Origin: Bacteroidales bacterium
GTDB taxonomy: Bacteria > Bacteroidota > Bacteroidia > Bacteroidales > Tenuifilaceae
Reading direction: 5' to 3'
DNA: 64,000 bases
Assembly: GCA_013376985.1 (NCBI GenBank)
Contig: JACABB010000009.1
Coordinates: 1-64,000 of the forward strand
The notes under the pieces are model-generated. The model saw only the letters and a program-made list of their open reading frames with translations, had not been told where the DNA came from and ran no database searches. This document shows positions 1,356 to 20,045 of this stretch, one piece after another (positions within the stretch are counted from its first letter, which is position 1; each line of letters starts with the position of its first letter). Both the position numbers and the translations under genes were made by a program.

Positions 1356-2735
1356 ATGGAAATCAAGACGGGTCGAATACTAGCAATTGATGATAATCAG
1401 GAAATCCTTTTATCTCTAAGGGTAGTGCTTTCAAAGCATCTCGAGGAGATTAAACTTTACGTTGCCCCAAGCGATGATGCCATAAAAGAGATTACCTCGG
1501 GTAGTTATGATGTAGTCCTATTAGACATGAATTTTACACCAGGTTCAACAAGTGGAAAGGAAGGACTGGATTTTCTTAAAAAGATAATTTCAATTGATCC
1601 TTCAATTTCTGTAGTAATGATTACGGCCTATGGCGATGTAAATATAGCTGTAGAAGCGATGAAATATGGTGCAACCGATTTTGTACTTAAACCGTGGGAG
1701 AATAAAAAATTACTTGCAACTGTTTTATCAGCATATAACCTCAGCAAGAGCAAAAGAGAATCAGCCGATCTTAGACAAAGTAGAAGGGTTTTGGCAAATG
1801 ATATCGATACACCATATGTAAAGATTATAGGCGAGTCAGAACCGATGAAAAAGGTAATGTCTGACATTGAAAAGGTTGCTAAAACTGATGCCAATGTTCT
1901 AGTTCTTGGTGAAAATGGTACAGGTAAAGAGCTAGTTGCAAGGGCAATTCATCGGATCTCTGATAGGGCATCGCAGCTATTCGTTTCTGTTGATATGGGA
2001 GCAATTCCCGATACGCTCTTTGAAAGTGAACTTTTTGGTTGTGTTAAAGGTGCTTATACCGATGCTCGTGAAAATAGACCAGGTCGGTTTGAGATGTCAT
2101 CGGGGGGAACTCTATTTCTTGATGAGATTGCAAATATCCCTTTAACCTTACAAGCAAAACTGCTTGGAGTTCTTCAAACAAAGCAAGTTTCACGTTTAGG
2201 CTCAGTGGCGAGTAAAGATATTGATATTCGTTTAATATCCGCCACAAATGCATCAATAAACCAGATGATTAATGAGGGAAAATTTAGACAAGATCTTTAC
2301 TATAGAATAAATACTATTGAAATAACAATACCTCCATTGCGCGAGAGGGGCGATGATATCCTACTTCTAGCGAATCATTATCTTGATATTTATAGCAGGA
2401 AGTATGGTAAACGGAATTTAAGACTATCAAAGGCAGTTCAACGCCTTATACATTCTTACAACTGGCCTGGAAATGTTAGGGAGTTGGCACATTCTATCGA
2501 ACGAGCAGTTATAATGACCGATGGAGCTGCAATTGAACCAGATTCTATCCTATTCGCTCACCAAAATCCATCAATGCTTCAGCAGAGAGATACTAGCCTC
2601 CATATAGATGAGGTTGAAAAACAAACAATCATAAAAGCATTGAAAGTAAATGATGGGAATATCAGCACTGCTGCATTAGAGCTAGGAATGGGAAGAACTA
2701 CACTTTATCGTAAAATGGCAAAATATGGTATTTAA
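1356..2735 (+). CDS. Sigma-54-dependent NtrC-family response regulator
   Basis: A 459-residue activator with the full NtrC/AtoC layout. The receiver domain (1-125) has acidic D12/D13, phospho-acceptor D57 and a KPW lysine. The AAA+ sigma-54 interaction domain (about 155-380) has Walker A GENGTGKE (185-192) and the Walker B stretch LFLDEI. A Fis-type HTH ends the protein (GNISTAALELGMGRTTLYRK). The sigma-54 contact loop reads GAYTDA rather than the canonical GAFTGA, so contact may be altered; Y for F is common, D for G less so. Its stop overlaps the start of the histidine kinase by 11 bases, making the two a cognate pair. Target genes are not evident locally. Confidence 0.93.
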   Translation: MEIKTGRILAIDDNQEILLSLRVVLSKHLEEIKLYVAPSDDAIKEITSGSYDVVLLDMNFTPGSTSGKEGLDFLKKIISIDPSISVVMITAYGDVNIAVEAMKYGATDFVLKPWENKKLLATVLSAYNLSKSKRESADLRQSRRVLANDIDTPYVKIIGESEPMKKVMSDIEKVAKTDANVLVLGENGTGKELVARAIHRISDRASQLFVSVDMGAIPDTLFESELFGCVKGAYTDARENRPGRFEMSSGGTLFLDEIANIPLTLQAKLLGVLQTKQVSRLGSVASKDIDIRLISATNASINQMINEGKFRQDLYYRINTIEITIPPLRERGDDILLLANHYLDIYSRKYGKRNLRLSKAVQRLIHSYNWPGNVRELAHSIERAVIMTDGAAIEPDSILFAHQNPSMLQQRDTSLHIDEVEKQTIIKALKVNDGNISTAALELGMGRTTLYRKMAKYGI

Positions 2736-4083
2736 GTCGTTTCGATTTAAGGTTATATTGAGATTGTTGATAATTACTTCGGTAATAGTTTTTATTATCT
2801 ATTTTATAGCTAAACCTTATTACTATTTTACTGTTGGCGAGTTATTACTTCTGGTTATAGCATTAATTATAGAACTTATTCGTTTTATAGAAAAAGGTCA
2901 TCGTCAAATTAATCAAATGCTCGAATCGCTTAAAGAGCGCGATTTCAGCCTTAAATTTAACCCTGTTGAAGAGGGTAAAGTTTTTCGTGGGCAAGCCAAA
3001 ATTTTGACCCAGCTGGTGCAATCTTATCGGGATATAAGAATCGAGAAGGAGATGCACTACCAGTTTCTTAATTTAATTGTTAATCAGCTAAATTATGGCA
3101 TTGTTTGCTTTGATGCCGATGGAAAAATTAGTTTATCAAATAAAACTATAAAAAAACTATGTGGGCTTAGCGAGATTAGTCACATATCATCACTGAATAG
3201 AATTGATAAAAATCTTAGTAATGCGATTGAGTCGCTTAAAACAGGGGAAGAAAAATTGATCTCTGTGATTAAAGATGGTGAATTCTTTAAGTATTCAATT
3301 TCTTGTAACGAAATCAGATTACTTGATAGTAGATACAAATTGGTTGCCCTACATAATCTACACTCTACCTTGCAGGAACATGAGTTAGATTCACATAAGA
3401 AGTTGATAAGAATTTTAACCCATGAGATTATGAATTCGGTTACCCCAATTCTATCTCTCAGTGAATCGATGAACGAGAACCTAAAGGATGAATCAGGGAA
3501 TATAAAGGAACTGAATGATATAAGTAAAGAGGATGCTGAGGATTTGATTCTAGGATATGAAGCAATTGAGGTTAGGAGTAGAGCTCTTATGCGATTTGTA
3601 AACGATTTCCGAAGTTTAACCCGATTGCCAGATCCAAAAATAGAAGTGGTTGAGATTGATAGCTTGTTTAGGAATGTACTTTCCCTTTATCGAGCCGAAA
3701 TTGATGAAAAAGGAATAAAACTCTCAGTTTATATCACTCCTGATATCGAGACTATTTCAGTTGATAGGGGAATGCTAGAACAGGTTTTGATTAACTTGAT
3801 AAAGAACTCTATAGAGGCCTTAGAGGATACATTTAAATCGGAGATTGTTATAGAGTCCTTGCTCCTTGAAAATAGTATAGCCATTGTAATTACTGATAAT
3901 GGTAAAGGAATTTCTCCCGAAAACCTTGAGAAGGTTTTTATTCCATTCTTTTCTACAAAAAAGGATGGATCTGGCATAGGTCTTAGCCTTTCACAACATT
4001 TAATTCATTTAATGGGCGGTACAATAGGTGTAAAATCCATTCAGGGTTTAAAAACTTCATTTAGCATTAGGTTTCCCATTTAG
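2725..4083 (+). CDS. Membrane-bound sensor histidine kinase
   Basis: A 452-residue kinase partner of the preceding NtrC-type regulator; the genes overlap by 11 bases, implying translational coupling. Two hydrophobic helices in the first 50 residues anchor it with almost no periplasmic loop, so it probably senses a cytoplasmic or membrane signal. A PAS-like segment follows (about 110-220). The phospho-acceptor is H233 in ILTHEIMNSVTP, followed by the N box (NLIKNSIEAL), G1 box (DNGKGIS, about 391) and G2 box (GSGIGLSLS). This is the NtrB/AtoS-like arrangement usual for sigma-54 regulators. The signal is unknown. Confidence 0.92.
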   Translation: MVFKSFRFKVILRLLIITSVIVFIIYFIAKPYYYFTVGELLLLVIALIIELIRFIEKGHRQINQMLESLKERDFSLKFNPVEEGKVFRGQAKILTQLVQSYRDIRIEKEMHYQFLNLIVNQLNYGIVCFDADGKISLSNKTIKKLCGLSEISHISSLNRIDKNLSNAIESLKTGEEKLISVIKDGEFFKYSISCNEIRLLDSRYKLVALHNLHSTLQEHELDSHKKLIRILTHEIMNSVTPILSLSESMNENLKDESGNIKELNDISKEDAEDLILGYEAIEVRSRALMRFVNDFRSLTRLPDPKIEVVEIDSLFRNVLSLYRAEIDEKGIKLSVYITPDIETISVDRGMLEQVLINLIKNSIEALEDTFKSEIVIESLLLENSIAIVITDNGKGISPENLEKVFIPFFSTKKDGSGIGLSLSQHLIHLMGGTIGVKSIQGLKTSFSIRFPI

Positions 4084-4158
4084 ATATATTACCTGCTTTT
4101 TTTGTACAATATAGAATAAACGATTGTTTAATTTTAGATATTTAAAACTAATTATTAA

Positions 4159-4166
4159 TATTTTTG
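4159..4166 (+). promoter_or_regulatory. Candidate -7 promoter element of the TetR gene
   Basis: TATTTTTG fits TAnnTTTG exactly, 23 bases before the TetR ATG at 4190, a distance compatible with a short leader. No convincing -33 TTTG lies at the expected spacing. Confidence 0.4.
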
Positions 4167-4189
4167 CACTCCTATAGAAAAATATAAGT

Positions 4190-4801
4190 ATGGATTCTTC
4201 AACTGGAAATACAACACGCGATAAGTTAATTGAAACAGCCAAAGAGTTATTTCTTGCAAAAGGGGTAGATAGAGTTGGTGTTAGGGAGATTGCCGCAACT
4301 GCAGGTATTAACCTTTCATTGATGAATTACTATTTTCGCAGTAAAGAAAAGTTATTAGAGACAATTTTTGAAATGGTAATAGCCGATAAAGCCACTATCC
4401 TTCGCCAAATTCTCGATTCCGATAAGCCAATTGAGGTTAAGATAAAAGATTATGTTTATAAATACATCGATTTACTTGTAGAAGATCCATTATTAGTATC
4501 TTTTGTATTATCTATTATCCACCGCAATAACGATAAAATAACCAAAATGCGGGTAATCATGAATTTGTATAATTCAGAGCATTTTATTGCACAATTAAAA
4601 CGTGAAGCTGAGATGGGTAGAATTAAGTCTATAGATTCTGAACAGTTCTATATTAGCATGTTAGCACTTATACTATTCCCCTTTTCAATAAAACCTCTTA
4701 TTTCCCATCGAAATAATTTCAATGATAAGGAAACATTGAATTTTCTGCTTAATAGGAAGAAATCTGTATACGAAATGTTAATTGCTACTATTAAGTTATA
4801 A
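4190..4801 (+). CDS. TetR/AcrR-family transcriptional regulator
   Basis: A 203-residue regulator. The N-terminal 60 residues hold the TetR HTH: RDKLIETAKELFLAKGVD, then VGVREIAATAGI and the recognition helix around LSLMNYYFRSKEKL. The C-terminal ligand domain is all-helical and not recognisable further. It follows the kinase by about 100 bases with its own promoter-like element, so it need not be cotranscribed. No efflux pump or divergent target lies beside it. It ends convergently only 7 bases from the cyclophilin gene. Confidence 0.9.
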   Translation: MDSSTGNTTRDKLIETAKELFLAKGVDRVGVREIAATAGINLSLMNYYFRSKEKLLETIFEMVIADKATILRQILDSDKPIEVKIKDYVYKYIDLLVEDPLLVSFVLSIIHRNNDKITKMRVIMNLYNSEHFIAQLKREAEMGRIKSIDSEQFYISMLALILFPFSIKPLISHRNNFNDKETLNFLLNRKKSVYEMLIATIKL

Positions 4802-5580: not shown

Positions 5581-5608
5581 ATCGTTATGCCTTGATATAC
5601 ATAACGAT
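5581..5608. promoter_or_regulatory. ModE-like box 1
   Basis: A 9-bp perfect inverted repeat, ATCGTTATG and CATAACGAT, with a 10-base spacer. Its core is CGTTAT-N12-ATAACG, the same half-sites and spacing as the E. coli ModE operator as I recall it. It lies about 60 bases upstream of the -7 element of the molybdenum hydroxylase cluster, and a ModE-like protein is encoded at 16781. Confidence 0.65.
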
Positions 5609-5680: not shown

Positions 5681-5706
5681 TCGTTATGAAATATAATTCA
5701 TAACGA
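5681..5706. promoter_or_regulatory. ModE-like box 2
   Basis: A 10-bp perfect inverted repeat, TCGTTATGAA and TTCATAACGA, spaced by 6 bases. It gives CGTTAT-N12-ATAACG exactly as in box 1. It covers the likely +1 region just after the -7 element and ends 8 bases before the start codon at 5715, so bound protein should block transcription. Confidence 0.65.
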
Positions 5707-5714
5707 ATAAACTT

Positions 5715-6155
5715 ATGGTCAAAGATCATCTTGAAGAGGCTTTGGAGCTATTTAAATCTGGTTATCACTGCTCGCAATCGGTTCTTGCTGCTTTTAGTGA
5801 AGAGTTAGGACTTCCTCAAGAAACAGCACTTAAAATTGCTTGCCCTTTTGGAGGAGGACTTGGTGGATACGGAAGAACCTGTGGTGCTCTTACAGGTGCC
5901 ATGATGGTTGTAGGTCTAAAGTATGGAGCTACTAAAGATACAGATGTTGAAGCTAAAACGCTTTCGCGTAAAAAAACTCGGGAACTGATTGAGGCATTCG
6001 AGAAAGCGCATGGTACAAGTATTTGTAATGACCTTATTGGTGTTAACAGAAGTAATTTTGGAGGAGATGAACTACTGGCAATACGTCCAATAGTTCAGAA
6101 CACTTGCCCTAAATTTCTAGAAACAGTTATTACATACCTTGAAGAAGAGTTATAA
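5715..6155 (+). CDS. C_GCAxxG_C_C family redox-type protein
   Basis: A 146-residue cytoplasmic protein of the C_GCAxxG_C_C family, named for its spaced cysteines. Visible: C in YHCSQSV, C in ACPFGGG, CGALTGA (the GCAxxG-like core), C in SICNDLIG and the last C in NTCPKF. Such proteins are presumed to bind metal or carry redox-active thiols; no reaction is established to my knowledge. It is the first gene after the promoter with two ModE-like boxes and lies 45 bases before the aldehyde oxidoreductase. A homologue (DVU_1555 type) occupies the equivalent cluster in Desulfovibrio, from memory. It probably supports maturation or electron transfer for the molybdoenzyme. Confidence 0.85.
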   Translation: MVKDHLEEALELFKSGYHCSQSVLAAFSEELGLPQETALKIACPFGGGLGGYGRTCGALTGAMMVVGLKYGATKDTDVEAKTLSRKKTRELIEAFEKAHGTSICNDLIGVNRSNFGGDELLAIRPIVQNTCPKFLETVITYLEEEL

Positions 6156-6187
6156 ACTAGACACTAAAGACTAAAAACAAAATAACT

Positions 6188-6195
6188 AGGAGGAA
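6188..6195 (+). promoter_or_regulatory. Strong Shine-Dalgarno site, unusual for this phylum
   Basis: AGGAGGAA lies 5 bases before the ATG at 6201. Bacteroidetes genes generally lack such sites, and the neighbours here do. It fixes the start of the aldehyde oxidoreductase and suggests high expression or acquisition from another phylum. Confidence 0.7.
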
Positions 6196-6200
6196 CATTC

Positions 6201-9119
6201 ATGAAACTTAGAAAAATGTGGCTCAATATCAATGGAGCAAACCGAATGTTTATTTGCGATCCCGAAAAGGATACTCTTGCTGATGTAGTTCGTCGTATGG
6301 GCTTAACCGGAACTAAAGTAGGATGCAATAAGGGCGTCTGTGGTTCTTGCTCTGTGATTTTGAACGGAAAATTGGTACGTGCTTGTACAAAGAAAATCCG
6401 TTCAGTTGATGAGTATAGTCAATTGTTAACCATTGAAGGTATCGGTACACCAACAAACTTACACCCAATTCAAGTCGCTTGGATGCAGCTTGGCGCTGTT
6501 CAATGCGGTTTCTGTGTACCAGGTTTCATTGTGTCAACCTATGCAATGCTTCTTGAAAATATTAACCCTACACGCGAAGAAGCACGTGATTGGTTTCAGA
6601 AGCATCGTAATGTTTGTCGTTGTACTGGCTACGTACAAATAATTGATGCTGTAATGGCTGCTGCAAAGGTGATGCGCGGCGAAGCAACTATCGATGATAT
6701 TTCTTTCAAGAATCCTAAGGATGGTGAATATTATGGCAAACCAGTAGTTCGTCCTACAGCACTTGCAAAAGTATGCGGTCTAGCAGACTATGGTGATGAC
6801 CAAGAGCTTAAGATGCCTGCCGAAAGTCTTAAAGTTGTGATGGTACAGCCTAAGATTGCTCATCACGCTAAAATCTTAAAAATTGATACTACCGAAGCTG
6901 CAAAAATGCCAGGTGTGGTAAAAATTATCACAGCTGATGATATTAAAGCTGCCGGTGGAACAAATATTATGGCCGAAGGTCACTTCCATGAGCGTACTAC
7001 AATTATGGTTCCTAGCCGTAAAGTTCTTTGTGAAGATAAAATCTATCGTTATGGTGATGTTGTAGCCCTTGTTTGTGCAGATACAAAAGATCATGCTCGT
7101 GATGCTGCTGCAAAAGTAAAGGTGGAGATTGAAAAACTTCCTGAATATCTAGGTTACCTTGACGCTGTAATGCCTGATGCTATGCGCATTCACGAAGACA
7201 CTACAAATATTTTTGCTAAGCAACCTGTTCTAAAAGGTGTTGGTCTAGATCAACCTTCTAAAGTTGCTGAAGTAATTGATAGTTCAGCTTTTAGTGCAGA
7301 GGGAAGTTTCTTTGCAACCCGTGAACCCCATCTTTCCATCGAAGGCGATACTGTTCAAGCATACTTTGATGAAGATGGTTTCCTCGCTATTCAATGTAAA
7401 TCTCAAGGTGTATACTCATCTATTGGTCGTATTGGAAACTCTGTAGGTGTACCAAAGGATAAGATAAGAATTATCATGAACCCAACCGGTGCTAGTTTCG
7501 GTTGGTCAACAAACGCTGGCGACCTTTGTCTTGCCGCAGCGGCCACTGCAATCACTAAAATGCCTGTTGCATTATCAATGACCTATGAAGAGCATCAGCA
7601 TTTTTCTGGAAAACGTCGCCCTTGTCACTCAAACGGACGAGTTGCTTGCGATAAAAATGGTAAGATAACCGCTACTGAATTTGAATTTGGTATGGATCAA
7701 GGGTGCTATACCTTTGGAGGTGATGATATCATTTCAAAACAGGTTCGTTTTGCATTTTTTCCATACAATGTTCCTAATGTGGCTGGTATTTCTCGTATAG
7801 CAATCACCAATCACAATTTTGGTACTGCTTACAGGAGTTATGGATCACCACAGGCTTTTACATTAAGCGAAGCGCTTATGGACATGCTTGCTGAGAAAGC
7901 GGGTATCGATCCATTTGAAATACGTTGGAGAAATATTGCACGTCAAGGTGAGTTAAACATTAATAGTTGTCCATTTAGGCTTTATCCAATGGAGAAAATG
8001 ATGGAAATGCTGAAACCACATTATGATAAGGCTGTTAAAGAGGCTAAAGAGAAAGATACGCCAGAAGTTCGTCGTGGTGTAGGTTTAGCATGGGGTGGTT
8101 TCAATGTAACTGAAGGTGCGACCGACCACGCAACTATTCACCTAGAACTTAACCCTGATGGTACAATCACAAAGTACGATACTTGGCAAGAACTTGGTCA
8201 GGGAGGTGATATAGGTTCTGTTATGGTAACTTTAGAGGCATTAAAGCCACTTGGTATAACACCTGAGCAAATTAAACTTGTTCAAAGCGATACAAAGCTA
8301 TGTCCCGATAGCGGTATGTCAGCTGGTAGCCGTTCTCACTACATGAATGGTCATGCTACCATTATTGCTGCTGAGAAGCTAATGAAAGCTATGAAAAAAG
8401 CAGATGGTACCTATAGAACATATGACGAAATGGTTAAAGAAAACATACCTACAAAATATGAAGGTAAGTATATGACCATCGTAACCCCAGGCTTAAGCCG
8501 CCTTGATCCAAATACAGGTATTGGAGACCCAACCCCAGCATTTACCTATGCTCTTAATATGGCAGAGGTTGCTGTTGATACAAAAACTGGAAAAACTACA
8601 GTTACCCGTTTTGTCTGCGTAGCTGATGTTGGTAAAGTTGGAAACATCGATGCTGTAAACGGTCAGGCTTATGGCGGTATATCACATAGTATTGGTTTTG
8701 CACTCTCTGAAAACTATGAAGATGTAACCAAGCACACTAATATTGCATCGAGCGGTGTACCATATATCAAGGACATTCCAGATGATATTCAGCTTATCTA
8801 TCATGAAAGCGACGATAAGACTGGACCATTTGGCTCATCAGGAGCATCAGAGGCGTTCCAAGCATCGGGTCACGTTGCAGTTTTAAATGCTATTAATAAC
8901 GCTTGCGGTGTAAGAATTTACGAAATGCCAGCAACCAAAGAAAAGGTTAAAGAAGGACTTGATATTCTTGCAGCAGGAGGTAAAATTAATCCACCTAAAA
9001 AATATTTCCTTGGTGCTGATTTGTATGATGAGCTAGAAGATATTAAAGCTAATCCAGTTCCATACGGCGGTATCGATTTCTTTAAGCCACTTGGGGCTGC
9101 TGGAGAAAGATTCTTTTAG
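6201..9119 (+). CDS. Mop-type molybdenum aldehyde oxidoreductase
   Basis: A 972-residue fused xanthine oxidase-family hydroxylase, close in size and layout to Desulfovibrio Mop: two 2Fe-2S domains, then the molybdopterin domains, with no FAD domain. The plant-type cluster uses C42, C47, C50 and C62; the second uses C102, C105, C139 and C141 (QCGFC, CRCTGY). The expected catalytic glutamate is E884 in GSSGASEAFQASGH. Such enzymes hydroxylate aldehydes or related carbons with water. There is no signal peptide. It has a strong Shine-Dalgarno site and many CGT arginines, unlike its neighbours. Electrons probably go to the flavoprotein encoded next. The substrate is unknown. Confidence 0.92.
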   Translation: MKLRKMWLNINGANRMFICDPEKDTLADVVRRMGLTGTKVGCNKGVCGSCSVILNGKLVRACTKKIRSVDEYSQLLTIEGIGTPTNLHPIQVAWMQLGAVQCGFCVPGFIVSTYAMLLENINPTREEARDWFQKHRNVCRCTGYVQIIDAVMAAAKVMRGEATIDDISFKNPKDGEYYGKPVVRPTALAKVCGLADYGDDQELKMPAESLKVVMVQPKIAHHAKILKIDTTEAAKMPGVVKIITADDIKAAGGTNIMAEGHFHERTTIMVPSRKVLCEDKIYRYGDVVALVCADTKDHARDAAAKVKVEIEKLPEYLGYLDAVMPDAMRIHEDTTNIFAKQPVLKGVGLDQPSKVAEVIDSSAFSAEGSFFATREPHLSIEGDTVQAYFDEDGFLAIQCKSQGVYSSIGRIGNSVGVPKDKIRIIMNPTGASFGWSTNAGDLCLAAAATAITKMPVALSMTYEEHQHFSGKRRPCHSNGRVACDKNGKITATEFEFGMDQGCYTFGGDDIISKQVRFAFFPYNVPNVAGISRIAITNHNFGTAYRSYGSPQAFTLSEALMDMLAEKAGIDPFEIRWRNIARQGELNINSCPFRLYPMEKMMEMLKPHYDKAVKEAKEKDTPEVRRGVGLAWGGFNVTEGATDHATIHLELNPDGTITKYDTWQELGQGGDIGSVMVTLEALKPLGITPEQIKLVQSDTKLCPDSGMSAGSRSHYMNGHATIIAAEKLMKAMKKADGTYRTYDEMVKENIPTKYEGKYMTIVTPGLSRLDPNTGIGDPTPAFTYALNMAEVAVDTKTGKTTVTRFVCVADVGKVGNIDAVNGQAYGGISHSIGFALSENYEDVTKHTNIASSGVPYIKDIPDDIQLIYHESDDKTGPFGSSGASEAFQASGHVAVLNAINNACGVRIYEMPATKEKVKEGLDILAAGGKINPPKKYFLGADLYDELEDIKANPVPYGGIDFFKPLGAAGERFF

Positions 9120-9120
9120 A

Positions 9121-9238
9121 AGAAGTGCCTAGAGTGCCTAAAGTACTTCGAGTGCCTAAAGTTAGTTATACTTAACTCTAATACTATTAACTTTAAGTAC
9201 TCTAAGTACTTGAAGTACTCTTAACTTTATGTACTAAC
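9121..9238. repeat. Short direct and inverted repeats between operon genes
   Basis: This spacer consists of repeats of AGTGCCTAAAGT-like and AGTACTT-like units in both orientations, able to fold into AT-rich stems. It separates the oxidoreductase from the flavoprotein. Whether it processes the mRNA or is an inert repeat cannot be told. Confidence 0.6.
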
Positions 9239-9240
9239 AA

Positions 9241-11475
9241 ATGACTGAGCAAAACGAATTTGTTAAGGAATGTTTACAAAACGAACGGGCATTTTGCACA
9301 GCAGAGTGCCCGTTCAGTCTTGATATTCGCGATTTTGTTGGAAAAATCCAACAAGGTCGATTTAATGTAGCATACAGAACATATCAGAATGCGGTAGGAT
9401 TTCCCGGTATTGTTTCGGCTTTGTGCCCTGAACCATGCAAACAGGTTTGTCCTATGAAGGATGCAGGAGGTTCTATCTCAATAAAGCGACTCGAAATCGC
9501 AGCTATGAGCTATGCTCGTAATACTGCGCCAGACCAATATAATATGCCCCCAAAAGGCAATAGAATTGCCATTATTGGTGGCGGAATTAGCGGTCTTGCT
9601 TGTGCGCTTCGTTTAACCACAAAAAAATACGATGTAACCATCTATGAGAAGTCATACTTGTTGGGTGGACATCTTCATAGTTTGCTTGAACCCGAAGTAT
9701 TCCTTAATGATATAAAGCAGCAGTTCATTAATGAAAATTTCACGCTATTGCTCAACACCGAAGTTACACGTTTAGATGATTTGAGTTTTGATGCTATCTA
9801 TATAGCAACGGGTAAGGGTGGTAATGATTTCGGTCTTTTTGAAAGTAATGAAGGTGCTTTTGCCACTACAAAATTTGGTATTTTTATAGGCGGATCAATC
9901 ACTGGGGTAGATACTATGACTGCAATTGCACATGGTCTTAATGTTTCAGGAGCTATTGAGCGATTCTTGAAGATTGGAAAAATGAATCATCCAGTAGAAG
10001 CAACTGGAACTAAATTGCTTTATGAGGGAATACGAATAGTTAAGGCTGATGCCGTTGAGCCATTAGATGGAAAAACATTTACCAAAGAAGAATCTATAAC
10101 TGAAGCAAATCGCTGTCTTAAATGTGCTTGCGATGCCTGTGTTCATCATTCTCCGTTGATGAACTATTTCAAAAAATTTCCTAAACGCATTGCCGATGAA
10201 GTTGAAGTAACCATAAGGCCTAGCACATTAGATGGTAATGGTACAGTTTGTACAAGGCTTATTTCCACTTGCAATCATTGTGGGTTGTGCAAAGAGGTTT
10301 GCCCTAAAGATATCGATACTGGTGAATTTCTGCGAGAAAGTATGCATTCAATGCATAAGAAAGGAGCAATGCCTTGGGCATTCCATGAATACTACATAAG
10401 GGATATGGAATTTTCAAATAATGAGGCTGCTCTTACAAAGTTACCACAAGGCCATAACAAAAGCCGATATCTCTTTTTTCCAGGTTGTCAACTTGGGGCT
10501 TCAGATTCTCGTTATGTAACCGAAAGCTATAAATTTTTAAGTGAGCAATTCCCCGACACGGCGTTAATGCTAAGTTGTTGTGGCGCTCCTGCCGATTGGG
10601 CTGGTGATGTAGAAAATCACACTAAAGTTATCGATAGGATAAAGGCTGACTGGATTAGTCTTGGAAAACCAATTGCCATCTTTGCATGTCCGATGTGCAA
10701 GCAGATGTTTCAGCGTTTTCTTCCAGAAATTGAAGGACAATTTCTATATAATATCATTGATGAAAAAGGAAGTGACCTTATTCAAAAAACAAAAAAGGGT
10801 ATTGCATCGGTATTCGATCCTTGTGCAAGTAGGTTTGAGCCAGCATTGCAGAGTTCTATTCGTAATCTAGCAACCAAGGCAGGTTTTTGCCTTGAACCGT
10901 TGCCTATGGAAGGTAAAATGGCGGAGTGCTGTAGCTATGGCGGACATGTGGCAATTGCATATCCACCTTATGTGACTCATAATGTGCAAAAACGAATTGA
11001 GCAAAGTAATAATCCATACATAACCTATTGCTCAAACTGTCGTGATACATTTACGGCAGCAAAGAAACCAACTTGGCATATCCTCGATATAATTTTTGAT
11101 TTGGATAATGAAAATCGAGTATTACCAACGATTTCAGAGCGAAGGGATAAACGACTACAGCTGAAACAACAATTGCTAAATGAGTTTTGGAAGGAGGCAA
11201 GTATTATGGAAAAACCAGCAATAGAGGTTATAATCTCACAAGAACTCAAAGAGAAATTAAATAGTAAATATATTTTAGAATCGGATATTTACACAGTAAT
11301 TGATAATTGTGAGAAAAGCGGAAGCAAACTGTTTAATCCCAACTCAGAGACATTTACAGGGTATTTGCAAATTGGTAAAATGACTTATTGGGTTGAATAT
11401 CGTGCTAAACAAGAGCGTGAATTTGAACTTGTAAACGCATACTGTCATCGAATGAAAATAGAGGAGGGAGAATAG
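9241..11475 (+). CDS. GltD-like flavoprotein with dicluster and CCG domains
   Basis: A 744-residue fusion. Residues 1-100 form a GltD-type N-terminal Fe-S domain (FCTAECP, LCPEPCKQVCP). An FAD-binding Rossmann segment follows (IAIIGGGISGLACALRL, about 109-125). Then come two cluster motifs (CLKCACDACVHH, CNHCGLCKEVCPKD). The C-terminal half carries HdrB-like CCG motifs (FPGCQLG with SCCGAP, and CCSYGG with CSNC). It is therefore a soluble electron carrier or bifurcation-type module linking a flavin, Fe-S clusters and perhaps a thiol-disulfide centre. It follows the molybdoenzyme and precedes a tiny redox protein by 4 bases. The same fusion (DVU_1558 type) sits beside Mop in Desulfovibrio, from memory. 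Confidence 0.85.
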   Translation: MTEQNEFVKECLQNERAFCTAECPFSLDIRDFVGKIQQGRFNVAYRTYQNAVGFPGIVSALCPEPCKQVCPMKDAGGSISIKRLEIAAMSYARNTAPDQYNMPPKGNRIAIIGGGISGLACALRLTTKKYDVTIYEKSYLLGGHLHSLLEPEVFLNDIKQQFINENFTLLLNTEVTRLDDLSFDAIYIATGKGGNDFGLFESNEGAFATTKFGIFIGGSITGVDTMTAIAHGLNVSGAIERFLKIGKMNHPVEATGTKLLYEGIRIVKADAVEPLDGKTFTKEESITEANRCLKCACDACVHHSPLMNYFKKFPKRIADEVEVTIRPSTLDGNGTVCTRLISTCNHCGLCKEVCPKDIDTGEFLRESMHSMHKKGAMPWAFHEYYIRDMEFSNNEAALTKLPQGHNKSRYLFFPGCQLGASDSRYVTESYKFLSEQFPDTALMLSCCGAPADWAGDVENHTKVIDRIKADWISLGKPIAIFACPMCKQMFQRFLPEIEGQFLYNIIDEKGSDLIQKTKKGIASVFDPCASRFEPALQSSIRNLATKAGFCLEPLPMEGKMAECCSYGGHVAIAYPPYVTHNVQKRIEQSNNPYITYCSNCRDTFTAAKKPTWHILDIIFDLDNENRVLPTISERRDKRLQLKQQLLNEFWKEASIMEKPAIEVIISQELKEKLNSKYILESDIYTVIDNCEKSGSKLFNPNSETFTGYLQIGKMTYWVEYRAKQEREFELVNAYCHRMKIEEGE

Positions 11476-11479
11476 AAAG

Positions 11480-11671
11480 ATGGAAGAAAAAAAACTTATT
11501 TGCTTTAAATGCCAGAAGAAGTTAGAACTTAAAAAAACTAACTTCTCATATCTGGGGCACATTTTTTTCACCGAGGTACCAAGATGCCCTCAATGTGGTT
11601 TGGTTTTTATCTCCGAAGACTTGGTAAAGGGACGAATATCTGAAGTTGAGATGCAGATGGAGGACAAATAA
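11480..11671 (+). CDS. Small four-cysteine redox protein (DVU_1557-like)
   Basis: A 63-residue protein with two CxxC knuckles, CFKC near residue 10 and CPQC near residue 37, in a rubredoxin-like or zinc-ribbon pattern; the tail is acidic. It starts 4 bases after the flavoprotein and ends 21 bases before the radical SAM gene, so it is surely cotranscribed. The spacing of the cysteines would suit one iron or zinc. Small proteins of this type occupy the same place in the Desulfovibrio cluster (DVU_1557 family, from memory). It may shuttle electrons between the flavoprotein and its partners. The metal is unproven. Confidence 0.75.
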   Translation: MEEKKLICFKCQKKLELKKTNFSYLGHIFFTEVPRCPQCGLVFISEDLVKGRISEVEMQMEDK

Positions 11672-11692
11672 GTTAAAAGAGATAAGTGAAGA

Positions 11693-13030
11693 GTGAAAAG
11701 TTCAAGACTTATATTGGAAAACGGATTAATGCCTGATTATCAGTTATTATATAAAACATGGAGTATTTGTCCAATCTGTATGAAACGCCTGCCCGCAGAA
11801 CGTGTGCAAAGAGGTGAGCAAGTATTTCTTAAAAAAATATGTAAAGAACACGGCTCATTTGAAAGCATTATTTGGCGAGGATATTCCAGTTTTAGTGAAT
11901 GGGTAAATAACTCCGATCAACCTGCTCTTGAAAACCCTAATTGCCCTGATAGTTGTGGTTTATGCTCAGATCATCTTCAGAAAACATGCTGTGTAATTCT
12001 CAATATAACAAATCGATGTAATCTCAATTGCCATTTTTGTTTTGCAGATTGTAATAACAGCAATGATGAACTAACTTTTGAAGAGATAAATAAGTCGCTT
12101 TCTAAGCTAATAGTAAAAGGTAAAACTCTTGTTCAACTTAGTGGTGGCGAGCCAACAATGCGCGATGATTTACCTGAAATCATAAAGGCCGCAAAAGATT
12201 TAGGTGCAAAATATGTGCAACTCAACTCAAATGGCATCCGTTTGAGTGAAGATAAAGAATATGTGAGAAAACTTGCCAAAGCAGGTCTATCCTTTGTATT
12301 CATGCAATTTGATGGTACTGATGATGCAATATACAAGAGTTTACGCGGTAAGTCGCTTCTGAAAGTTAAGCAGAAAGCAATTGAACGTTGCTCAGAGCAT
12401 AATATTGGTGTAACGCTTGTTCCAACATTGGTTCGTGGTGTTAACACCCATAACATTGGTGATATACTTAGTTATGCAATCTCTGAGTCGCCCAAAGTTC
12501 GCGGAGTACATTTTCAACCAGCGACTTTTTTAGGTCGAGTACCCGAAAAGCCAACAAACGATGAACGTTTTACACTTGATGAACTGATATTCGAAATTCA
12601 AAAGCAGACAAATGGAATGATTAAGTCAGAGAATTTGCTTCCCTCTGCATGTGACCATCCTCTTTGTGGCTTTCATGGAGATTTTATTGTTGATCAAAAC
12701 AAAGTTATTTCGCTTTTAAAGCGAGAAAAAACTGAGAAGAGTTGTTGCGGTAGCCCTGTAGCGGCCGATATAAATAGGGAGTTTGTTGCGAGACGTTGGC
12801 AAAGACCTCCAACTACAAATGCAAGTTTGGATTCATCTAATGGCAATTTACACGATATGGAGTTCTTTCTTAATCGTGTAAAAACGCATGGCTTTACAGT
12901 AACATCAATGGCATTTCAGGATGCTGGCAATATTGATTTTTCACGCCTTCGGAATTGTAGCCTCCATGTATATGATAAAGGAAGTTTTATACCATTTTGC
13001 TCATATTATCTTTCAGGATGGAAGCAATAA
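11693..13030 (+). CDS. Radical SAM protein (TrsS-like)
   Basis: A 445-residue radical SAM enzyme. The cluster motif is CNLNCHFC in NITNRCNLNCHFCFADC (about residue 105), followed by the glycine-rich LSGGEPTMR. The N-terminal segment has a CPIC knuckle plus further cysteines, and the C-terminal part has many more (DHPLCGFHGDF, SCCGSP, NCSLHV, PFCSYY), suggesting extra Fe-S or metal sites. The overall shape resembles MoaA/Tes-like proteins and the family NCBI calls TrsS. The given start is GTG at 11693; ATG at 11729 is an alternative. It overlaps the methyltransferase gene, so the two probably act together. The reaction is unknown. Confidence 0.82.
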   Translation: MKSSRLILENGLMPDYQLLYKTWSICPICMKRLPAERVQRGEQVFLKKICKEHGSFESIIWRGYSSFSEWVNNSDQPALENPNCPDSCGLCSDHLQKTCCVILNITNRCNLNCHFCFADCNNSNDELTFEEINKSLSKLIVKGKTLVQLSGGEPTMRDDLPEIIKAAKDLGAKYVQLNSNGIRLSEDKEYVRKLAKAGLSFVFMQFDGTDDAIYKSLRGKSLLKVKQKAIERCSEHNIGVTLVPTLVRGVNTHNIGDILSYAISESPKVRGVHFQPATFLGRVPEKPTNDERFTLDELIFEIQKQTNGMIKSENLLPSACDHPLCGFHGDFIVDQNKVISLLKREKTEKSCCGSPVAADINREFVARRWQRPPTTNASLDSSNGNLHDMEFFLNRVKTHGFTVTSMAFQDAGNIDFSRLRNCSLHVYDKGSFIPFCSYYLSGWKQ

Positions 13031-13659
13031 AGAATACATCTTGTGTTATAAACCGCCCAGGCGGTTTTATAATTACCGACACAGCATTTTCCTTCTGTTC
13101 ATTTACTAAAAATGCAAAAATTCTTGATCTAGGATGCGGCTCTGGTGCAACTGTTGAATATTTGCACCATAAATATGGCTTCGATGTCTATGGACTTGAT
13201 AAAAAACTAGAACTATCGGATATACCAAATAATCTATTTAAAGCAGCAGCAGAAGTAATCCCCTTTCCTGAAATATCAATGGATGGAGTTCTTATGGAAT
13301 GTAGCTTTTCAATGATGACTAATCAGAAAACCGTGTTAAAAGAGTGTAATCGAGTGCTAAAAGCAGATGGTCGTTTGATTATCTCAGATATGTACGCACG
13401 TGGCGAAGCAGCACAGTTAAAAGGCTGTTTGGGACGTGTTGACTCAAAGGAAAGTATTATAAATATTATAGAGAGTAATGGTTTCACAATAGAGCTTTTC
13501 GAAGACTTCTCCCAACATCTTCAAACCATGTGGGGGCAAATGATCTTTGAAAAAGGGGCAAAGACTTTCTATTGCGACTTGGGCGTTGATCCCGAAACCA
13601 TGAAACGTATTAAATGCGGCTACTATCTAATTGTTGCCAGCAAAAAGGTTGCGTTATGA
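13018..13659 (+). CDS. SAM-dependent methyltransferase (DVU_1556/TrsM-like)
   Basis: A class I methyltransferase of 213 residues from the ATG at 13018, which overlaps the radical SAM gene by 13 bases; an upstream TTG at 12997 is less likely. SAM motif I is ILDLGCGSGATVEYL; LDKKL supplies the acidic end of strand 2 and VLMECSFSMM motif IV; KECNRVLKADGRLIISD is the typical post-motif helix and strand. Its stop overlaps the next start (ATGA). The tight coupling to the radical SAM gene implies sequential or joint modification of one substrate. No substrate can be inferred. Confidence 0.85.
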   Translation: MEAIKNTSCVINRPGGFIITDTAFSFCSFTKNAKILDLGCGSGATVEYLHHKYGFDVYGLDKKLELSDIPNNLFKAAAEVIPFPEISMDGVLMECSFSMMTNQKTVLKECNRVLKADGRLIISDMYARGEAAQLKGCLGRVDSKESIINIIESNGFTIELFEDFSQHLQTMWGQMIFEKGAKTFYCDLGVDPETMKRIKCGYYLIVASKKVAL

Positions 13660-14879
13660 TTTCTCCCGTTGAAACATGGGTTGCTGAACGTACTGGCCTT
13701 CGAGATAATCTTAATCCCGAAACATTAAAGAAATGGCAACTTGGTAAGCTTAGTGCTTTGATTCAATATGCCTGTGAAAATACTAAATTTTACCATGAAA
13801 AACTTCATTCTACAAGCGATATAACTGAATTACCATTCACATCCCCTTCAGATATTGCTGCAGATCCATTTGCTTTTCTTGCTATACCGCAGAGTTTAGT
13901 TGCAAGGGTAACTACTCTTGCGAACTCAGGAACTACTCACCTAAAAAAACGCATATTCTTTTCGAAAGCTGATCTAGAAAGAACCATTGATTTTTTTGCT
14001 GTAGGCATGAGCACAATGGTGCGTAAAGGAGAAAAATCACAGATACTTATTTCAAACAGAACCGAAAATAGCCTTGGAAGTTTACTCAAGGAGAGTCTTT
14101 TGAGAATAGGTGTTACCTCAGAAATATCTGGAACAATTAAATCAGTGAATGCTGCGATTGAAGCTTCTAAAGGCGGCGATTGTCTGATTGGTATGCCTGC
14201 TGAAATGCTTTATATGAGTCATAAAGCACCTGAGTTGCGTCCTAGAAGCGTTCTTCTTGCTGCTGATTATATACCTCAAAGTTTAATTAATGGTATTAAA
14301 GAAACATGGAAATGTGATGTGTTCACGCACTATGGTCATTCAGAGTTTGGTTTTGGATGTGCTGTTGATTGCGATCAACACAATGGATATCATTTGCGAG
14401 ATGCAGATCTTATTTTTGAAATTATCGATTTTAAGACAGGAAAGTCAGCCAAGATTGGTGAAAGTGGTGAAATAGTAATTACAACCCTATCTAACGAAGC
14501 GATGCCACTAATTCGTTATCGTACAGGCAATATATCTCGGTTTATAAATACTCCTTGTGGATGTGGTAGCCTACTTCCAAGATTAGGGAGTATAGAAGGG
14601 CGTATTTCTAGTTATATCCCTATTGGTGAAGGTAAGGTATTGAGCATACATCAACTTGATGAGATAATATTTGCAGACCCAAATGTTCGTAGTTTTGATG
14701 CTTCTATTAAAAATGATAAGGTAATGAAAACTTTACTTTTAACTGTAGATTCTAATGGTTCTATTGACTTGGATTCCTTTAGTGATAAGCTGCCAAAGAG
14801 CATCAACGTTGAGGTGAAGTACGATAAAGTAGATCCTTTCTCTCACAGGGCAAAAAGACGAATAAATATAGTTTCGTAA
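13656..14879 (+). CDS. PaaK-like AMP-dependent adenylating enzyme
   Basis: A 407-residue protein from the ATG at 13656, overlapping the methyltransferase stop by four bases. It resembles phenylacetate-CoA ligase-type adenylate-forming enzymes: a start like ETWVAERTGL, many short helices (LIQYACENTKFYHEKL), the phosphate-loop equivalent ANSGTTHLKKR, the GHSEFGFG motif, and the adenylation motif PLIRYRTGN. Glycine- and cysteine-containing PCGCGSLLPRLG is typical of the PaaK group. It presumably activates a carboxylate to an acyl-adenylate or acyl-CoA, perhaps the acid made by the aldehyde oxidoreductase. It matches the DVU_1553 type from memory. It is the last gene of the transcription unit. 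Confidence 0.8.
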   Translation: MISPVETWVAERTGLRDNLNPETLKKWQLGKLSALIQYACENTKFYHEKLHSTSDITELPFTSPSDIAADPFAFLAIPQSLVARVTTLANSGTTHLKKRIFFSKADLERTIDFFAVGMSTMVRKGEKSQILISNRTENSLGSLLKESLLRIGVTSEISGTIKSVNAAIEASKGGDCLIGMPAEMLYMSHKAPELRPRSVLLAADYIPQSLINGIKETWKCDVFTHYGHSEFGFGCAVDCDQHNGYHLRDADLIFEIIDFKTGKSAKIGESGEIVITTLSNEAMPLIRYRTGNISRFINTPCGCGSLLPRLGSIEGRISSYIPIGEGKVLSIHQLDEIIFADPNVRSFDASIKNDKVMKTLLLTVDSNGSIDLDSFSDKLPKSINVEVKYDKVDPFSHRAKRRINIVS

Positions 14880-14916: not shown

Positions 14917-14944
14917 TTCGATATGAATTTATTTTCATATCGAA
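14917..14944. promoter_or_regulatory. ModE-like box 3
   Basis: An 11-bp perfect inverted repeat, TTCGATATGAA and TTCATATCGAA, spaced by 6 bases. Its core is CGATAT-N12-ATATCG, the same architecture as boxes 1 and 2 with an A/T swap at one symmetric position. It lies just upstream of the -7 element of the aldehyde dehydrogenase, over the -33 region. Confidence 0.55.
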
Positions 14945-15052: not shown

Positions 15053-16603
15053 ATGGAAAGAGAAAGAATTAAACATGTGCTTGACAGGTTTGGTATAAAG
15101 CCAATTAATAATGGAGTATCTACTGGAGTTGTATGGTTTGAAACCAAAGGTGATATTACTGTATCTTCGTCGCCAATTGATAATAAAGAAATTGCTAAGG
15201 TTAAGAATGCAACAATAGAAGATTATGAAACAGTTGTAAAAAAAGCAGAAGAAGCATTTTTAATTTGGAGAGAAATTCCAGCACCTAAAAGGGGTGAAAT
15301 TGTTCGTCAGATAGGACTTGCTTTGCGCGATGCAAAAGAAGATTTAGGCTACCTAGTTTCGCTCGAAATGGGAAAGATATATCAGGAAGGTTTGGGTGAA
15401 GTTCAGGAGATGATTGATATTTGTGACTTTGCAGTAGGTCAATCGCGCTTGTTAAATGGCTTTACGATGCGTTCTGAAAGGAGGGAACATAGGATGTACG
15501 ATCAGTACCATTCATTGGGAATTGTAGGTCTTATCACATCGTTTAATTTTCCTGTAGCGGTTTGGGCATGGAACTCAATGCTTGCTGCTGTTTGTGGCGA
15601 TGTTGTAATTTGGAAACCCAGTTCAAAAACGCCTATATCTGCAATTGCAACTCAAAATATTATCTCAAAAGTACTTAAGGATAATAACCTTCCCGAAGGT
15701 ATCTTCAACTTGATAGTTGCTAAATCAAATGTTCTAGGTGATAATTTTGTTGCAGATAAGCGAATACCTCTATTCTCGATTACAGGTTCTACAAAAGTTG
15801 GCAAAAGGGCAAGTGCAATAATTGGTGAACGCCTTGGAAAGGCAATACTTGAATTAGGTGGAAATAATGCAGTTATTGTTTCTGATTCTGCCGATATTCA
15901 AATGGCTGTGTCTTCGACCGTTTTTGGAGCTGTTGGTACATGCGGGCAAAGATGTACAACAACTAGAAGAATAATTGTTCAAGAGAAAATTTACAATGAG
16001 GTGAAAAACAGTTTGGTAAACGCTTATGAACAGATTAAAGAAAAAATTGGGAATCCCCTTTTAGAAAATAACCTTGTTGGCCCTTTGGTTGACCAATCAG
16101 CAGTTAAGGCATTTTTACATGCTATTGATGTGGTTAAAAAGGAGGGAGGAAAGGTTTTGTGCGGTGGTTATGCCCTTGAGGGAGATAAATACCCTTCAGG
16201 AAATTACGTAGTGCCCGCTTTGGTTGAAGCAGAAAACCATTATAAAATTGTTCAGGAAGAGACATTTGCACCGATACTCTATCTCATTAAATATAAAACG
16301 ATTGAAGAAGCAATTGCCTTAAATAATGGTGTTCCTCAAGGATTATCTTCATCGATTTTTACTTTAAATATGCGTGAAGCAGAAAGGTTTGTATCAGATT
16401 TAGGATCTGATTGTGGTCTTGCTAACGTGAATGGCGGTACTTCGGGAGCAGAGATTGGTGGCGCATTTGGTGGTGAAAAAGAGACTGGTAGTGGTAGAGA
16501 GTCAGGTTCTGATTCATGGAAGCAATACATGAGAAGACAAACTAACACCATTAATTATAGTAATGAACTTCCATTGGCACAAGGAATTAAATTTGAATTT
16601 TAA
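15053..16603 (+). CDS. ALDH7-family aldehyde dehydrogenase
   Basis: A 516-residue NAD-dependent aldehyde dehydrogenase of the ALDH7 (antiquitin, aminoadipate semialdehyde) group. Hallmarks: SFNFPVAVWAWNSMLA, KPSSKTP for NAD binding, FTGSTKVG-like SITGSTKVG, general base E267 in LELGGNNA, the catalytic cysteine C301 in GQRCTTTRR, and the ALDH7 C-terminus GGEKETGSGRESGSDSWK. Length is normal. The family oxidises alpha-aminoadipic semialdehyde in lysine catabolism, but no other lysine genes are near. Its promoter holds a ModE-like box, so it may be coregulated with the molybdenum hydroxylase and handle a related aldehyde. Confidence 0.92.
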   Translation: MERERIKHVLDRFGIKPINNGVSTGVVWFETKGDITVSSSPIDNKEIAKVKNATIEDYETVVKKAEEAFLIWREIPAPKRGEIVRQIGLALRDAKEDLGYLVSLEMGKIYQEGLGEVQEMIDICDFAVGQSRLLNGFTMRSERREHRMYDQYHSLGIVGLITSFNFPVAVWAWNSMLAAVCGDVVIWKPSSKTPISAIATQNIISKVLKDNNLPEGIFNLIVAKSNVLGDNFVADKRIPLFSITGSTKVGKRASAIIGERLGKAILELGGNNAVIVSDSADIQMAVSSTVFGAVGTCGQRCTTTRRIIVQEKIYNEVKNSLVNAYEQIKEKIGNPLLENNLVGPLVDQSAVKAFLHAIDVVKKEGGKVLCGGYALEGDKYPSGNYVVPALVEAENHYKIVQEETFAPILYLIKYKTIEEAIALNNGVPQGLSSSIFTLNMREAERFVSDLGSDCGLANVNGGTSGAEIGGAFGGEKETGSGRESGSDSWKQYMRRQTNTINYSNELPLAQGIKFEF

Positions 16604-16780: not shown

Positions 16781-17140
16781 GTGAAAAATCAAAAGAATAA
16801 AGCAGGTAAAATTGATGCCGATAGTAGAATATGGCTTACCATAGACAATAAATCATTTTTAGGTCAGGGCAAAATAGAGTTGTTAGAAAAAATCAAAGAA
16901 TACGGATCGTTACGTAAAGCTGCTGGAGAAATGAAGATGTCGTATAGAAAAGCATGGGGGAGCATAAATAAAATTAATGAACTTGCTGGTAAACCTTTAG
17001 TTATCCTCAAACGAGGTGGGAAAGATGGTGGCATTGCTGAAATCACTGAAGTTGGAGAAAAAGCAATTATTATATTTAATCAACTTCAAGAAGAAATTAA
17101 GAATTTACTCGAAAAACAAACAAACTCCTTAGAACTGTAA
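16781..17140 (+). CDS. ModE-like winged-helix regulator lacking molybdate domains
   Basis: A 119-residue protein equal to the N-terminal DNA-binding domain of ModE. After a short tail comes WLTIDNKSFLGQGKIELL, then the HTH IKEYGSLRKAAGEMKMSYRKAWGSINKIN and the wing region PLVILKRGGKDGG. The two C-terminal TOBE/Mop domains that bind molybdate in E. coli ModE are absent, so ligand sensing must come from elsewhere or be lost. The start is GTG. It precedes the DUF364 gene by 22 bases. It is the natural candidate to bind the three CGnTAT-N12-ATAnCG boxes in this locus. Confidence 0.88.
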   Translation: MKNQKNKAGKIDADSRIWLTIDNKSFLGQGKIELLEKIKEYGSLRKAAGEMKMSYRKAWGSINKINELAGKPLVILKRGGKDGGIAEITEVGEKAIIIFNQLQEEIKNLLEKQTNSLEL

Positions 17141-17162: not shown

Positions 17163-17969
17163 ATGATTTTACAAGAAACATACGATTTATTGCGTACTAA
17201 ATACAGCGACCATTTAGAAAAAATTACAATTGAAAAAATACAGATAGGTTTATTTCTAACTGCTGTAAAACTTTCAAATGGTTATTGCGGAGTTGCCAGT
17301 AGTGATTTGGATACAACAATAAATTGTTGCCATAAGCAAAAACGTGATTTTGGCGATTTTACACCCGGAAATATTAATGGGCAAAAGGTTTTAGATCTAT
17401 TTAACTGTCAAGACAATTCAAAAATATTAGATAGGGTAAAACATGCCGTGCTAAATGCTGTATCTACTGAAATTATTGCTACATCAAATTACAAAATAAT
17501 AGAGGATAAAGACCCTTTTGACTTGATTGATACGAGCGGGCAAAAAACAATATGCATTGTTGGGGCATTTCAATCTTACATTAGAAAAATCTCAAACACT
17601 AGGCATAAGTTGTATGTATTAGAATTAAACGAAAATGCACTTGCTGAAGCTCAAAAGCAATACTATATTCCTGCCACCAATGCATCAGAAATATTACCTA
17701 ATTCTGATATTGTAATTATTACAGGTTTAACCCTAGCAAATAATACATTAGATGATTTACTATCCCATATTCCTTCAAATAAACAAGTGATTATTGTTGG
17801 ACCTACTAGCGGATTAATTCCCGATATACTTTTTAAGCACGGTATTAATATTATAGGATCAACAAAAATTACAAACCCTGAAAGAATGTTTACTGTAGTT
17901 TCAGAGGGTGGTGCAGGATTTCATTTATTTAAATATTGTGCTCGAAAAATTTGTATTCTAAATGAATAA
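17163..17969 (+). CDS. DUF4213/DUF364 putative metal-chelation protein
   Basis: A 268-residue two-domain protein. Residues 1-95 look like DUF4213 (an enolase N-terminal-like fold: VKLSNGYCGVAS) and 110-268 like the Rossmann-type DUF364 (ICIVGAFQSYI, IVIITGLTLANNTLDDLL, VIIVGPTSGLIPDILF, SEGGAGFHLFKYC). The family is described as a putative heavy-metal chelation domain and is often found near molybdenum or tungsten genes. It lies between the ModE-like gene and a membrane-protein gene whose start overlaps its stop by 8 bases. A role in handling molybdate or cofactor is plausible but inferred. Confidence 0.8.
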   Translation: MILQETYDLLRTKYSDHLEKITIEKIQIGLFLTAVKLSNGYCGVASSDLDTTINCCHKQKRDFGDFTPGNINGQKVLDLFNCQDNSKILDRVKHAVLNAVSTEIIATSNYKIIEDKDPFDLIDTSGQKTICIVGAFQSYIRKISNTRHKLYVLELNENALAEAQKQYYIPATNASEILPNSDIVIITGLTLANNTLDDLLSHIPSNKQVIIVGPTSGLIPDILFKHGINIIGSTKITNPERMFTVVSEGGAGFHLFKYCARKICILNE

Positions 17970-19950: not shown

Positions 19951-20045
19951 CGTGCAAAAACACCACTTTTATTCAACCAAAAATAATCATTATACCGAAT
20001 TTTGAATCGCTGGGGTGGTTGTCATTAGTGTTGTAAACTGGCTTT

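Follow-up and report, generated by a model that had tools for sequence, protein, structure and literature searches.

A divergent Bacteroidota variant of the Trs (DVU_155x) operon with a molybdenum hydroxylase and a radical SAM protein

What might a molybdenum hydroxylase, a radical S-adenosylmethionine (SAM) protein, a methyltransferase and a coenzyme A (CoA) ligase make together? The question is raised by seven same-strand genes that lie head to tail at positions 5715-14879 of contig JACABB010000009.1 (GCA_013376985.1) from a Bacteroidales bacterium of the Tenuifilaceae; the window is the first 64,000 nucleotides of this contig. The genes, here called CGA, Mop, DIC, RED, TrsS, MT and LIG, had been picked out in an earlier reading of the letters alone (the sequence-only reading), which gave both their order and the overlap of the last three correctly: with the start codons used by the closest relative, locus L024, all of which are present in the window for TrsS, MT and LIG, the overlaps are 13 bases (TrsS/MT) and 4 bases (MT/LIG, ATGA). 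That reading also matched the set to the Desulfovibrio neighbourhood DVU_1551-DVU_1559, which holds in large part: the partners are the same and six of the seven genes pass the curated NCBIfam cut-offs for the TrsS/DVU_155x families (NF045645, NF045646, NF045663, NF045666, NF045667 and NF045668). The parts that did not stand are the DVU_1551-type nucleoside triphosphate (NTP) transferase and XdhC, which were not found in the window, and CGA, which reaches only a general model. The operon set is not unreported, because these NCBIfam families exist and a 2026 review (PMC13188914), in its excerpted text, has an entry "Radical SAM selenoprotein TrsS NF045646" and refers to Haft and Tolstoy 2025. 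The neighbourhood is thus already catalogued, and the window holds a divergent variant of it, with a divergent CGA, an altered Mop gate, an altered A7 residue in LIG, Mo-box-like sites and no adjoining MocA or XdhC. A literature search, whose reach did not extend to the Haft papers themselves, found none in which the operon is given a function.

Distribution of the operon and its two types

Purpose-built profiles were used to annotate 51 stretches, namely 47 Trs loci (with one locus counted twice, as L037 and L125 are the same; L030 and L031 are near-identical, and both pairs were left in the counts) and 4 stretches with genes like that of the tetraether lipid synthase Tes. Outside the Bacteroidota (in the phylum of L038, whose record is titled Desulfarculus, and in the Chloroflexota) the genes usually run Mop-DIC-RED-MT-CGA-TrsS-LIG, and the operon is often preceded by a molybdopterin-binding-like gene and followed by XdhC, MocA and a gene resembling a phosphatase, whereas in the Bacteroidota CGA leads and TrsS stands ahead of MT (CGA-Mop-DIC-RED-TrsS-MT-LIG). 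Among the stretches of 8 Bacteroidota relatives, 5 have a MocA-like gene, accompanied by XdhC in 4; in the window's own genome a MocA-like gene (34.6% identical) lies on contig C67, one of three further stretches.

To see how closely the genes keep company, 297 genomes of the L038 phylum were searched with five family models and the matches were crossed. Matches over cut-off numbered 33 for TrsS, 32 for LIG, 30 for MT, 26 for DIC and 25 for Mop. TrsS is accompanied by LIG in 31 of 33 genomes by the strict count and in 33 of 33 when three near-cut-off LIG matches are added (275-289 bits; the next is 240), and by MT in 28 of 33, or 32 of 33 with four near matches (143-152 bits; the next is 107). 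Mop occurs with DIC in 25 of 25 genomes and with TrsS in 24 of 25, the sole exception (G306) having the other operon genes in a broken assembly (L131). Conversely, 24 of the 33 TrsS genomes have Mop; among the 9 without it, an incomplete Mop sits at the edge of a contig in G169, and the stretch of G318 is cut off by the end of its contig. Fisher tests on gene pairs gave p values of 1e-27 to 1e-44, which are a guide only since the genomes are related. As gene order is also kept within groups, the association is more than chance, and the two ways in which the sequence-only reading might have failed (chance order in one genome, or TrsS and MT homologues occurring mostly without the oxidoreductase) both fall away. 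Because Mop is tied almost absolutely to TrsS, MT and LIG, the role of the D. gigas-type Mop lies in this operon; we know of no consensus on the physiological role of that textbook molybdenum enzyme.

Elsewhere TrsS is sparse: it is over cut-off in 2 of 201 Chloroflexota genomes and present in 5 of 60 relatives of the window's genome, that genome included. RED, sought in 80 genomes, turned up in all 5 that have TrsS and in none of the 75 that lack TrsS over cut-off (hand-picked from 264). A search of viral contigs found no TrsS, and plasmids, where TrsS alone was sought, gave 7 records at 28.7-32.2% identity; a short-pattern scan of genome contigs with two patterns gave 11 loci and is no census. 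Two genomes, G361 and G140, carry two RED copies each, and in G361 Mop, DIC and one RED lie on a different contig from TrsS, MT and LIG. In a metagenome-assembled genome of the Lentimicrobiaceae (L032:9831-10012) RED is split over two frames and MT is in two pieces, by decay or sequencing error.

Eight loci have no Mop. In these DICc, elsewhere the C-terminal domain of DIC, is a separate gene of ~90 residues followed by RED-MT-TrsS-LIG (the LIG of L109 sits on another contig), and DIC itself, which lies in the stretch for six of the eight, is cut down to its dicluster and CCG parts. The eight cluster in the trees of TrsS (support 0.974), MT (0.991) and LIG (1.0, seven loci); the L038 stretch also has no Mop, yet it falls within the Mop clade. 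At two of these eight loci the genes upstream are of the HGD-D and BcrAD types. Since a supported clade keeps the core, Mop is an exchangeable part and not the defining one: these are two types of one system, with DICc-RED-MT-TrsS-LIG as core and Mop as client. The idea that a molybdoenzyme acts in one unit with the radical SAM and methyltransferase pair is therefore borne out from the side of Mop and has to be amended from the side of TrsS. DUF5714, which occurs in part of the Bacteroidota branch and in its sister L117/L119 and is fused to TrsS in L023 and L024, was considered as a further core part and rejected as a branch trait, being absent from the window's genome and present in 5 of 11 genomes tested. 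Joining CGA and DUF5714 in one family was likewise rejected (hhalign probability 0.6-2%).

Proteins, probable molybdate control and a proposed pathway

The gene products are described here with NCBIfam scores as bits/curated cut-off, and all seven genes lie on the plus strand. LIG (13656-14879; NF045666, 363.8/300) is a PaaK-type, AMP-forming CoA ligase, whose best solved match, along the chain, is PaaK (4r1l, 246.1 bits) and which keeps the PaaK-type SGTT, HYGxxE and C-terminal Lys motifs. The A7 Asp, which binds ribose in PaaK-type ligases, is Asn in the window; among 43 rows 38 have Asp, and the 5 with Asn or His are all from Bacteroidota, which supply 7 rows (L030, with a gap at this site, was left out). 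TrsS (11729-13030; NF045646, 530.1/490) has an open frame that begins at GTG 11693, with ATG 11729 as the preferred start, and no in-frame stop inside; selenocysteine is an optional trait of the family. Its only close solved relative is Tes (7tol, 305.2 bits), with which it shares the zinc-ribbon start, the radical SAM core, the invariant Cys and, after a match over the first 300 residues, a C-terminal Cys motif; it differs in its unlike C-terminal third, at the position of His273 (His against Asn, Thr or Ser) and in having no lipid context. TrsS keeps every one of the 11 Cys that do not vary among four Tes-like sequences (so named for scores under the TrsS cut-off, not by the Tes model): 9 are present in 46 of 46 rows and the other 2 in 45 rows, the last row having a gap; in Tes individual Cys are assigned to the zinc ribbon and to Fe-S clusters. 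Two relatives of the window's genome, L027 and L028, have Tes-like TrsS homologues (32% and 29% identical) with no other operon genes nearby. MT (13018-13659; NF045667, 190.4/155) is a class I SAM methyltransferase of the DVU_1556 family with a Cys102 (numbering of the original open reading frame translation) that is present in 44 of 44 rows; assignment as an arsenite methyltransferase was rejected (43.2 bits against 263, and a single invariant Cys).

Mop (6201-9119; NF045668, 1149.6/1100) is a xanthine oxidase family molybdenum hydroxylase without the flavin adenine dinucleotide (FAD) domain. It resembles the D. gigas aldehyde oxidoreductase (AOR; 1sij/1vlb, 816.7 bits against 1sij) in being a single chain of the same domains and in keeping the equivalents of its catalytic Glu (E884), Arg533 (R545) and Tyr535 (Y547). 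The pocket is different: alignment to 1sij places Thr437, Gly506, Asp509 and Tyr547 of the window at Phe425, Phe494, Leu497 and Tyr535, of which Phe494 and Leu497 have assigned roles in the gate and pocket of the D. gigas enzyme. The Thr/Gly/Asp/Tyr set is common to 9 of 9 Bacteroidota copies, and Phe/Phe/Leu/Tyr is kept in 22 of 26 other rows (one locus twice; matches of 600 residues or fewer were excluded), the four that deviate being L094, L117 (two copies) and L119. The D. gigas enzyme oxidises aldehydes and its Phe425 and Tyr535 sandwich the aromatic ring of benzaldehyde, according to the excerpted text of PMC4726530. Because these two residues are kept in 22 of 26 rows and the ligase is of the PaaK type, aryl-type substrates are indicated; an aryl acid is least convincing in the window itself, where Phe425 is Thr and the A7 Asp of LIG is Asn. 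"Aldehyde oxidoreductase" may be the wrong substrate label for the Bacteroidota branch, judging from these pocket residues. DVU_1559 is entered as aldehyde oxidoreductase under an ethanol metabolism heading in the proteome table excerpted from PMC10920352, and it also appears in the protein table of a biofilm study, likewise in excerpt (PMC11784015).

DIC (9241-11475; NF045663, 764.8/530; Pfam domains) consists of Fer4_20, an FAD-binding part, a 4Fe-4S dicluster, two CCG motifs and DICc. Its five-Cys motifs (C416/446/447/483/486 and C528/563/564/597/600) are complete, as in HdrB and other double-CCG proteins, from which DIC differs by fusion to the flavin part, the dicluster and DICc. Among Mop-type rows each Cys is kept wherever its position is filled (37 or 38 rows), apart from a single Ser; among Mop-free rows it is kept in 5 or 6 of 6 (one Ser, one Ala). 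CGA (5715-6155; PF09719, 106.8 bits) passes the general C_GCAxxG_C_C model (76.9/47.4), and its score with the DVU_1555 model, 53.4, is under the cut-off of 103. Its predicted structure (mean predicted local distance difference test score, pLDDT, 92.8) fits split-Soret cytochrome c (1h21) at Z 12.3 over 128 residues. This fit is favoured because the next entry is at only 3.4; the Foldseek E value is 0.10, the tool warns that helical models can reach Z ~13 by chance, and a sequence profile places two G-protein chains (E 0.002 and 0.0023) above 1h21 (E 0.01). By this model CGA shares the fold of that cytochrome; it has no haem part. The title of the 1h21 entry names a novel iron centre, which we take to lie in the part matched by CGA, so that CGA is possibly an Fe-S domain.

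Is the operon under molybdate control? The Mo-box-like palindrome TCGTTAT-N12-ATAACGA occurs in perfect form at 5582-5607 and again at 5681-5706 (no mismatch in either half-site), the second copy ending 8 bases 5' of the first start codon, and a third, weaker one lies at 14918-14943 before an aldehyde dehydrogenase (ALDH) superfamily gene; it has 2 mismatches to the pattern, yet is self-complementary. At two or fewer mismatches 0.37 matches are expected. The close relative L024 has sites at both matching places, upstream of the operon (there the same site as at 5582-5607) and upstream of ALDH. A short ModE-type regulator with the DNA-binding domain only is encoded nearby (16781-17140, plus strand). 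From these sites and this protein, the operon is probably switched by molybdate.

From the gene content, order, co-occurrence, conserved residues and palindromes observed above we would draw the following answer, conditional in every reaction, in the electron path, docking and substrate class and in its regulation, and one that we believe about as much as we doubt. The Bacteroidota branch of the Trs operon would be a molybdate-controlled pathway in which LIG adenylates a carboxylic acid, probably cyclic or aromatic, and joins it to CoA; TrsS, acting like Tes, would pull a hydrogen from an unactivated C-H position and form a new C-C or C-S bond; and MT would methylate the compound, so that these two rebuild the carbon frame. 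Mop would remove a hydride from the substrate or from an aldehyde form of it, the electrons running through the flavin, 4Fe-4S and CCG centres of DIC; CGA would be a putative Fe-S carrier, and RED would dock on DICc. The outcome may be a new natural product.

Several observations weigh against this pathway or its control. Two His that are invariant in the Tes-like set are replaced in TrsS (K97, R157), MT matches sugar, amine and arsenic methyltransferases alike, and the window has Thr at Phe425 of Mop and Asn at the A7 Asp of LIG. The best solved double-CCG match of DIC is an iron-sulfur-binding reductase (9ojn), ahead of HdrB, and therefore disulfide chemistry does not follow from the CCG motifs. 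As for the palindromes, 2 of 100 shuffles also gave three at two or fewer mismatches, and the exact site occurs in only 2 of 137 loci, both on the same contig. The ModE-type protein scores 78.5 with TIGR00637, under the cut-off of 98.5, and the closeness of the first palindrome with its flanks (28 bases) to the ModE Mo-box is presumed.

Among the other explanations the one that fares best, although unlikely, is aldehyde oxidation or detoxification, in which Mop and ALDH would oxidise an aldehyde, LIG would activate the acid and the radical SAM part would serve something else. ALDH (15053-16603, plus strand; NF050084, 770.5/730) stands next to the operon, outside its core and possibly in the same regulon, with a palindrome of its own, and the D. 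gigas enzyme is described as an oxidiser of aldehydes in the excerpts of PMC4726530; however, LIG tracks TrsS even where Mop is missing, and ALDH scores as an L-piperidine-6-carboxylate dehydrogenase. It is rather improbable that TrsS, MT and LIG serve maturation instead, modifying the pterin cofactor of Mop or the Mop protein: Mop's company with TrsS in 24 of 25 genomes and the MocA-, XdhC- and molybdopterin-binding-like genes often found in the same stretch would fit, but a supported clade holds the core without Mop, and the D. gigas structures contain what we take to be an ordinary molybdopterin cytosine dinucleotide.

The DICc-RED pair and the remaining alternatives

DICc (about 11218-11460, plus strand, by its predicted fold) and RED (11480-11671, plus strand; NF045645, 77.2/60; PF24292) are adjacent in a constant way: wherever DICc was detected (44 of 44 loci) RED lies 3' of it and on the same strand, 5 to 216 bases past the end of the domain match, and three more loci have a DIC without a detected DICc. 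The DICc model (pLDDT 79.9, well defined from residue 37 on) fits BrnT (Z 8.1, root-mean-square deviation 2.7, 75 residues), a Salmonella toxin (Z 8.1) and RelE and MqsR-type toxins, Z 8.1 being at the edge of the unrelated-fold range by the tool's note; with Foldseek the best DICc match is at E 0.02, short of 0.001. The commonest Pfam match of DICc copies is DUF4258 (4 of 37, best E 0.0077; the window's copy has no match), and the DICc of L109 scores 13.2/25 with it, under the cut-off. RED, with 63 residues and four Cys, has MqsA (28 of 36) and the YgiT finger (20 of 36, best 3e-05) as its commonest foreign NCBIfam matches, under cut-off among those listed; the window's scores are 20.0/20.2 (YgiT) and 13.4/61.8 (MqsA). 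Many general zinc ribbons in Pfam are matched as well, and against solved structures the RED profile finds CTCF zinc fingers first (E 7.8e-06), with no MqsA among the best 60 of 93. No helix-turn-helix was found in RED, whose residues 5 to 63 of 63 are covered by the 60-position DVU_1557 model.

A toxin-fold-like domain followed directly by a YgiT/MqsA-like zinc finger is also the gene order of mqsRA, and the resemblance of DICc-RED to MqsRA/BrnT-type toxin-antitoxin pairs is a weaker lead. The differences are that the matches lie below curated cut-offs, that RED has no helix-turn-helix, that DICc is mostly fused to an oxidoreductase and that the pair was found here only in Trs operons. A larger reading built on this lead is that the Trs core is a free-standing radical-SAM pathway with exchangeable redox clients (a molybdenum hydroxylase or HGD-D-type enzymes) that makes an undescribed CoA-linked compound, that a toxin-antitoxin pair was the ancestor of DICc and RED, which today form the docking joint of an electron-transfer complex, and that the substrate has changed in the Bacteroidota branch. 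We regard it as doubtful in view of the CTCF and zinc-ribbon matches and the Foldseek and Z results.

Could RED itself be a peptide-like substrate, its conserved tail modified by TrsS and MT as in ribosomal peptide pathways? Its C-terminus, ...E-x3-E-x-K, ends directly at the stop codon in 44 of 47 loci, Glu57 and Lys63 are present in 36 of 36 aligned members, and RED is absent from the 75 genomes without TrsS over cut-off (chosen from 264); but the Cys of RED are conserved equally to the tail, three Mop-free copies extend two residues further, the tail is a possible docking site and RED resembles a structural zinc ribbon, so the idea has a low probability, like that of maturation. Least probable is a lipid pathway akin to tetraether synthesis with TrsS as a Tes, for which the sole close solved relative and the kept invariant Cys speak, and against which stand the score of TrsS with the Tes equivalog model (327.6 bits, under its cut-off of 450), the separate Tes-like genes of L027 and L028 without adjoining operon genes, and the finding of no recurrent lipid family in the annotated stretches.

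Neighbouring genes and what the two operon types mean

Beyond the ModE-type gene lies a DUF4213/DUF364 protein (17163-17969, plus strand; PF04016, PF13938), a recurrent Bacteroidota neighbour, and then a remnant (17962-18095; 31 residues in one frame and 15 in another, after which it is lost) of the gene f14, which in relatives encodes a membrane part and an NTPase. The Bacteroidota f14 membrane protein and a 238-residue membrane protein of L116/L122 were tried as one family and rejected (hhalign 0.1%). By eye, a transposase-like nuclease gene follows the remnant (18530-19378, minus strand), and at 19660-20703 (minus strand) a HEPN-like open reading frame lies between two nucleotidyltransferase-like ones, resembling MNT/HEPN toxin-antitoxin sets. 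Also by eye, the stretch upstream of the operon (1356-4801) encodes regulators of the NtrC and TetR types and a histidine kinase, and at 30465-63113 SusC/SusD-like and glycosidase genes form a glycan-use cluster, followed by glycosyltransferases.

For the family as a whole, the clade without Mop separates the parts of the machine from its client. If the doubtful descent of DICc and RED were true, the pair would be a toxin-antitoxin pair turned into the joint of a metabolic complex.

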